A stretch of DNA of 64,000 nucleotides from Ignavibacteriaceae bacterium (GTDB taxonomy: Bacteria; Bacteroidota; Ignavibacteria; Ignavibacteriales; Ignavibacteriaceae): the NCBI GenBank assembly GCA_019638025.1, contig JAHBUO010000001.1, positions 310,001-374,000 of the forward strand. The letters are read 5' to 3'. The position numbers were made by a program, and so were the translations under genes. Below the pieces are notes generated by a model. It worked only from the letters and a program-made list of their open reading frames with translations. It did not search any database and was not told the DNA's origin. Positions 29,543 through 30,803 of the stretch are shown piece after piece (position 1 is the stretch's first letter; each line of letters opens with the position of its first letter).

Positions 29543-30625
29543 TTAAATGGATACAGGAATCGGTACTTGCTGAGTCCAACCAAATCTATCAGGAATTCTT
29601 CCATATTGGAAATTTAGCATTTCGTCGAATAGTTTGATTGCTAATTCTTCAGGTTCACCGTCATTGAATTTTAATAATTCATTGTTGTACTTAATTTCGC
29701 CAACAGAAGAAATAACAGCGGCAGTTCCGGTACCGAAAACTCCCATAACATTTCCGTTATGATACTGTTGAATTAATTCATCGATACTGATTAATCTTTC
29801 GTTTACGGTTAAGCCCCAATCACGCAACAAGTGAATAACTGAAGCACGGGTTACTCCATGTAAAATTCCGCCTGTAAGTTTTGGTGTAACAACTTCATCT
29901 TTAAGGTGAATAAAGATATTCATTGTTCCGACTTCTTCAATATATTTTTGCTCAACACCATCAAGCCAAAGAACTTGAGTATAACCTTCTTTGCGTGCTA
30001 TTTCAGCAGCTAAAAGGCTTGCAGCATAATTTCCGGGTGTTTTACATTCACCCATTCCTTTGCGAACAGTTCTGACATACTCATCTTGAACAAGAATTTT
30101 AACAGGTTTAAATCCTTCGGGATAATAAGCACCTACCGGAGTAAGTAGGATTATAAACTTGTAAGTTCTTGAAGGTCTAACCCCAAGTTGCGTATCAAGT
30201 GCAAAGAGAAATGGTCTTATATAAAGAGCTTCTCCTTTACGAGTAGGAATCCAATGGCGTTCGATAGAGACTAATTCTTTAAGAGCATGGATAGCAAAAT
30301 CAATATCAACCTCCGGCATGCATAATCTTTTTGCAGAATTGTTTAGTCGAATGAAATGACGCTCGGGTCTGAATAACAATACTTGATTGTTATCGGTTTT
30401 GAAAGCTTTCATTCCTTCAAATGCAGCTTGACCATAGTGAATAAACATTGCTGCAGGATGAACAGATAATTGCGAGAGAGGTTTAATTACAGAATTGTGC
30501 CACCCTTGTTCGGGTGAGTAGTCCATTTCAAAAACGTGGTCAGTAAAGATTTGACCAAAGCCTAACTCAGGTGGAAGATTAACATTATTTTCACGGTTGA
30601 GGAGTTCATAGCGAATATTTTTCAC
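29543..30625 (-). CDS. ilvE: Branched-chain amino acid aminotransferase
   Basis: Transfers the amino group between glutamate and the 2-keto acids of valine, leucine and isoleucine. The 360-residue protein is a PLP fold-type IV enzyme of the longer BCAT class. The Schiff-base Lys195 is in GMGECKTPGNYAAS; FEGMKAF, GTAAVISS and the EVGTMN motif are present. The start codon is GTG at 30623-30625, supported by the purine-rich AGGAAAGGGGAAG just upstream. About 75 nt further upstream on the same strand ends a structured, terminator-like RNA element (30692-30773) that may be an attenuator or an independent small RNA. Confidence 0.95.
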   Translation of the reverse strand: MKNIRYELLNRENNVNLPPELGFGQIFTDHVFEMDYSPEQGWHNSVIKPLSQLSVHPAAMFIHYGQAAFEGMKAFKTDNNQVLLFRPERHFIRLNNSAKRLCMPEVDIDFAIHALKELVSIERHWIPTRKGEALYIRPFLFALDTQLGVRPSRTYKFIILLTPVGAYYPEGFKPVKILVQDEYVRTVRKGMGECKTPGNYAASLLAAEIARKEGYTQVLWLDGVEQKYIEEVGTMNIFIHLKDEVVTPKLTGGILHGVTRASVIHLLRDWGLTVNERLISIDELIQQYHNGNVMGVFGTGTAAVISSVGEIKYNNELLKFNDGEPEELAIKLFDEMLNFQYGRIPDRFGWTQQVPIPVSI

Positions 30626-30691: not shown

Positions 30692-30773
30692 AAAATAAAA
30701 ACGCCCGGTGGAGGGCCAACCGGGCATGGGGAACATTCCATCAGGTGGGGTAAACCTGATGAAAGTGGGATTC
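30692..30773 (-). ncRNA. Candidate structured small RNA or ilvE leader with C-rich loops
   Basis: Read on the minus strand, a hairpin CATCAGGT-TTACCCC-ACCTGATG (30761 to 30739) is followed by a linker GAATGTTCCCCAT. A second hairpin GCCCGGT-TGGCCCTCC-ACCGGGC (30725 to 30703) then runs into GTTTTTATTTTA, a rho-independent terminator. The element is strongly GC-rich compared with its surroundings. Four C-rich motifs are left unpaired: the 5' end, both loops and the linker. A promoter-like TTGATA-17-TATTTT lies just upstream. It would make an RNA of about 80 nt ending some 75 nt before ilvE. It does not match a riboswitch or T-box that I know. Confidence 0.62.
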
Positions 30774-30774
30774 A

Positions 30775-30803
30775 AAAATATTTGTATCTTTTGTAAATAT
30801 CAA
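30775..30803 (-). promoter_or_regulatory. Sigma70-like promoter of the candidate small RNA
   Basis: On the minus strand TTGATA (30803-30798) and TATTTT (30780-30775) are separated by exactly 17 bp. The predicted start is about 30769-30772, immediately before the first unpaired C-rich motif. Confidence 0.5.

Follow-up and report, generated by a model that had tools for sequence, protein, structure and literature searches.

Layout and fold of the predicted RNA gene

The stretch of DNA analysed here, hereafter called the window, comprises 64,000 nucleotides of contig JAHBUO010000001.1 from an Ignavibacteriaceae bacterium (assembly GCA_019638025.1, positions 310,001 to 374,000 of the forward strand), and it carries on its minus strand a predicted small RNA (sRNA) gene located upstream of ilvE. 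The ilvE gene (29543..30625, minus strand), which encodes a class IV aminotransferase, starts with a GTG at 30625 in the start region AGGAAAGGGGAAG. Upstream of it, a promoter-like site, TTGATA-17-TATTTT (30775..30803, with the TTGATA box at 30803-30798, a 17-nt spacer and the TATTTT box at 30780-30775), is followed by a predicted RNA of ~80 nt (30692..30772), whose 5' end was placed from the position of this promoter. The RNA contains a 5' ATCCCAC motif (30765..30771), an 8-bp hairpin (hairpin 1, CATCAGGT/ACCTGATG, 30739..30761) with the loop UUACCCC (TTACCCC in DNA), a linker with UUCCCC (TTCCCC in DNA, 30728..30733), a 7-bp terminator hairpin (GCCCGGT/ACCGGGC, 30703..30725) with the loop TGGCCCTCC, and finally the U-tract of an intrinsic terminator (30692..30701). 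An earlier note on this stretch had described the promoter, both hairpins, the linker and the U-tract, and all of them were found on the minus strand at the positions that it gave, except that the RNA ends ~66 nt before the ilvE start codon, as measured from the end of the U-tract, and not about 75 nt before it.

The predicted RNA folds with an energy of -31.0 kcal/mol, compared to -17.0 +/- 2.8 kcal/mol in shuffled sequences (z = -5.0, reached by 0 of 200 shuffles), indicating that its structure is not a product of chance. Its four C-rich motifs had been described as unpaired, and this was mostly the case, but within the window copy's terminator loop, RNAfold allows two additional G-C pairs. 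That loop, UGGCCCUCC, includes CCUCC, the core of the anti-Shine-Dalgarno (anti-SD) sequence. When both strands of the 64-kb window were scanned for a C-loop stem of at least 7 bp located at most 40 nt from a C-loop terminator, this was the single site that was found, and 20 Markov shuffles of the window contained no such pair. The promoter of the window copy, taken alone, is a weak match (9/12) that is not significant by itself, comparable sites being equally common in shuffles; it becomes credible because -35/-10-like boxes recur at an equal distance in related genomes. The sequence TATTTTTG (30780-30773, minus strand) also matches the Bacteroidota-type -7 box, TAnnTTTG.

Conservation and genomic location of type I copies

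In BLAST searches of 59 relatives, the element was seen upstream of ilvE, and two genomes carried several copies. The exact terminator pattern GCCCGGT-N0-6-CCCTCCACCGGGC was also scanned across 11.3 million genome contigs: the matches that also had hairpin 1 came from named Ignavibacteria or from metagenome-assembled genomes labelled Bacteroidetes or Melioribacteraceae, several of these contigs being identical to ones in genomes of this family or order. Matches without hairpin 1 were taken as chance; most of them came from other phyla, in DNA rich in GC. A covariance model, R2, used to avoid this exact-pattern selection of the terminator sequence, then detected 27 copies of this RNA, here called type I, that score above 54 bits and are regarded as strong; they are spread over 19 of the 80 genomes of the Ignavibacteriaceae family. 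It also detected weaker ilvE-linked relatives in a sister family (f2). The window RNA itself has a covariance model match of 77.8 bits, and its comparison with Rfam at gathering and relaxed thresholds gave sub-threshold matches only.

The stems of this RNA covary, as the earlier note would have expected of an sRNA. Across the 38 distinct rows of the R2 alignment, which was fitted to the model and hence leans toward the model structure, 97.4% of the cells are paired, the corresponding values being 85.7% for shuffles and 24-47% for slid controls, and 14 of 18 pairs display double changes, with 65 double-change cells compared to 14.1 +/- 2.9 in shuffled alignments (0/500). A MAFFT alignment already displayed double changes in 6 of the 11 pairs of hairpin 1. 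Compensatory changes were found in both stems, while the loops stayed C-rich: CCUCC is retained in the terminator loop of all 26 distinct strong copies and the C-run of loop 1 in 24 of them. The two other C-rich motifs did less well, since UCCC is present in the linker of 15 of these 26 copies and the 5' ATCCCAC is generally not conserved. No part of type I is more strongly conserved than the terminator. Individual genomes illustrate how stems can change around fixed loops: in G001, CACCTCC is enclosed by a terminator stem with compensated changes, GTCCAGC/GCTGGGC; G024 has a different hairpin 1 (GGTTCGCTAA.../...TTAGCGAAC) enclosing AACCCCCC; and on contig C64 of G009, the terminator stem is extended around the loop GGCCTCC. 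Fixed loops on altered stems are seen at loci L138, L139 and L151. Judged from these sequence comparisons, the predicted two-hairpin RNA with covarying stems and fixed C-rich loops is a real conserved gene.

Most type I genomes have a copy located ~53-82 nt upstream of ilvE. Such a position would suit a cis-acting ilvE leader, i.e. a transcription attenuator at whose terminator most transcripts end short of ilvE, read-through being regulated, and the earlier note had proposed either this or a trans-acting regulator, with strict linkage to ilvE as the mark of a leader. The linkage turned out not to be strict, as nine host sites have no ilvE: genome G009 carries six copies, one at ilvE and five beside unrelated genes, genome G034 carries four, one at ilvE and three beside unrelated genes, and in G001 the ilvE copy has decayed and an intact copy lies on contig C120 (a copy at a contig end in G024 was not counted as being away from ilvE). 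The ilvE copies are also degenerate in G004, G068 and G018. Three viral contigs carry type I as well (L117:1864-1938, L119:2588-2659 and L120:13008-13080): on the first two, it is found at the same site between the genes for the terminase large subunit and a Mu-type portal protein, on the opposite strand, and on the third, which has host-like genes as well, an ArdC antirestriction gene is located ~1.2 kb away from it.

When copies within one genome were compared, the identity of the RNA body (0.90) was far above that of the upstream 60 nt (0.65-0.67) and of the downstream flank (~0.50), indicating that selection acts on the RNA and not on its flanks. Pairing between the C-rich motifs and the ilvE start region, which the earlier note had hinted at, did not exceed that of shuffles (16 loci, mean z -0.31; a wrong start was used for two of them, L023 and L126) and is not conserved. 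Upstream of ilvE, the window copy has no leader peptide rich in Ile/Val/Leu codons, and no T-box was matched there using Rfam. Since copies exist elsewhere, since the RNA body is kept while ilvE copies degenerate and since pairing with ilvE is not conserved, a trans-acting RNA is favoured, and we consider it unlikely that the element is an ilvE leader. We infer that ilvE is the usual site of the type I RNA and not its target.

Several observations weigh against a trans-acting RNA. A copy at ilvE is kept in 17 of the 19 type I genomes (13 of these 17 were recognised by a script and the others by an identical N-terminal peptide), so that an additional cis role at ilvE is possible. In the sister family f2, loci L170, L171 and L174 have a hairpin and a terminator before ilvE without C-rich loops, which fits a leader; either the sRNA motifs have been lost there or the element is an attenuator of ilvE. 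The invariance of the terminator stem in our first alignments was partly selected by the exact-pattern scan, which fixes the terminator sequence. Finally, complements of the four motifs (5-mers) were found at the start sites of 10.6% of the genes, compared to a mean of 14.2% for shuffled G-rich motifs; this lack of enrichment indicates that the C-rich motifs are not tuned to the commonest, AGGA-type Shine-Dalgarno (SD) sites.

A second RNA family, type II

Weak R2 matches led to a second RNA family, here called type II, which consists of an outer stem, a hairpin whose loop reads UUCUCCCCUG and a terminator whose loop is rich in C. A model of this family (R3) detected type II in 74 of the 80 family genomes, with up to eight copies per genome, and in 169 of 391 genomes of the class Ignavibacteria; in a phylum-wide sample, it was found only inside this class. 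Type II stems also covary (121 double-change cells compared to 35 in shuffled alignments, 0/500), and among 49 distinct copies, 47 have CCCC in loop 1 and 48 have CCCC or CCUCC in loop 2. The source genome has one type II copy (G000:C98:26560-26639, the same as L252:8561-8640). Neither type I nor type II matches an Rfam family. R3, which was trained without type I, matches the window RNA at the same place (31.3 bits, E 2.7e-5), a likeness that may come from a common origin or from a shared design.

Type II, which is found at loci such as L148, L167, L168 and L176, is located just upstream of a small gene at most of the loci inspected; in the tested example, this gene encodes a DUF3098 protein. 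The type II terminator ends ~20 nt before the start of the DUF3098-like gene, which may depend on read-through of this terminator. Two or three type II genes in tandem, spaced ~160-320 nt apart, were observed at G033:C120:6395-7108, G064:C357:8952-9352 and G008:C1:3781349-3781636. Locus L147 (G088:C113:1604-1679) holds a possible third variant, with UUAACCCCCAG in its hairpin loop and an ordinary terminator loop.

Proposed action and comparison with known systems

By sequence and comparative evidence, the window RNA gene is free-standing, with its own promoter and Rho-independent terminator, and the copies away from ilvE and on viral contigs make its location independent of one target gene. 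We therefore consider it probable that this is the gene of a trans-acting sRNA. It would be transcribed as a discrete RNA of ~80 nt, in which ACCCC and CCUCC, and frequently UUCCC as well, would lie exposed and serve as redundant seeds; by pairing with the G-rich ribosome-binding regions of a number of mRNAs, these would block translation of other genes. Hfq would have no part in this, and an RRM-type RNA-binding protein might be involved.

The earlier note had stated that this genome uses SD sites, and SD 4-mers are indeed present in 49% of the start regions of the source genome, compared to 23% in a control, with a peak at -9 to -6 and with AGGA-like sites being common. It had also suggested that the RNA controls translation through such sites: a trans-acting sRNA is supported, but the loop complements are not above shuffled motifs at start sites. 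A target search combining loop complements and duplex energies over 434 kb of the source genome gave no significant signal, ilvE ranking 23 of 293, and the targets may be a subset of mRNAs with G-runs. On the ribosomal side, the anti-SD 14-mer was absent from a search of the incomplete source genome, TGGATCACCTCCTTT was found in four of nine relatives, and CACCUCC is present as the anti-SD in relatives. The closed genomes G002, G019 and G026 gave no match to the exact 16S 3' end TGGATCACCTCCTTT and presumably have a variant 16S 3' end as in other Bacteroidota.

Considering potential partner proteins, no Hfq scored over the cut-off in any of 41 genomes, 34 of which are of high quality, the source genome G000 being 86% complete. 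A weak match in G041 lies below the cut-off and contains stops. RRM_1 proteins, on the other hand, are present in 28 of 31 relatives, including the source genome, in which one is encoded at G000:C115:24918-25127. Together with loops that are fixed yet do no better than chance at the commonest start-site motifs, these proteins would fit an RNA whose fixed C-rich strands bind an RRM, KH or cold-shock protein and which acts as a sponge or is itself regulated by the protein. We find this rather improbable, considering that CCUCC is the anti-SD core and that LhrC and NfeR1 pair with mRNAs through motifs arranged in the same way. It is most improbable that the element, as a conserved intrinsic terminator, does no more than end a transcript of the ilvE region, having spread within repeats and being devoid of any regulatory role: its GC-rich stem, U-tract and highly conserved terminator fit this, but the CCUCC of its loop is constant while stems change, hairpin 1 covaries and keeps its C-loop, and promoter-like boxes lie directly upstream of the compared copies.

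Going beyond the window RNA, type I and type II could together make up a large anti-SD-type sRNA family of the class, with up to eight copies per genome, carried by phages and exerting a global, Hfq-free control of translation, possibly served by RRM proteins. We advance this wider proposal tentatively and with less confidence than that of a trans-acting sRNA in the window. Phage-borne copies could interfere with host translation control or exploit it. Among the papers searched, we found none on sRNAs in Ignavibacteria. As far as Rfam and these papers show, the RNA forms a family not described before, its functional kind being a known one, and this family has a class-wide relative. In a group in which Hfq was not detected, the alignments and covariance models provide the definition of an RNA family that is class-wide and open to testing.

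Several known sRNAs offer points of comparison. LhrC of Listeria monocytogenes blocks an SD site by means of CU-rich motifs that are redundant and lie in a loop, a linker and a terminator loop, Hfq being unneeded for the tested target, and lapB is a proven target (PMC4132741). Like LhrC, the window RNA belongs to a family with several copies and has C- or CU-rich motifs in its loop, linker and terminator loop, but the two come from different phyla, the window RNA has no Rfam match and a target is proven for LhrC (lapB) alone. In alphaproteobacteria, ar14/NfeR1 (RF02344) keeps an ultraconserved anti-SD motif in unpaired loops of variable stems (PMC10746234), just as type I keeps an anti-SD loop motif constant while its stems differ. 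However, ar14 has three hairpins with CCUCCUCCC, whereas the window RNA has two hairpins and does not match ar14, and the matches of type II to the ar14 model (32.8 and 28.9 bits) are weak and far below the gathering score of 58.8 bits. The FopS sRNAs of Bacteroides thetaiotaomicron are multicopy paralogues that act near start codons, with the RRM-1 protein RbpB as a partner and phages as suggested spreaders (PMC11697453). FopS and type I are alike in belonging to related phyla, in being multicopy, in their link to phages and in the presence of RRM_1 proteins in the genomes, but the term "C-rich" is absent from the text of PMC11697453, in which the seed is not so described. We claim no homology to FopS, LhrC or ar14, which type I would resemble in its way of working. 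The 6C RNA of Actinobacteria, whose two stem-loops carry C-runs of about six nucleotides (PMC4046766), shares two C-loop stem-loops with the window RNA, although 6C is Actinobacterial and the window RNA has no Rfam match. The RNA described here would independently exemplify the redundant C-rich-seed design known from Listeria, from alphaproteobacteria and perhaps from Actinobacteria.
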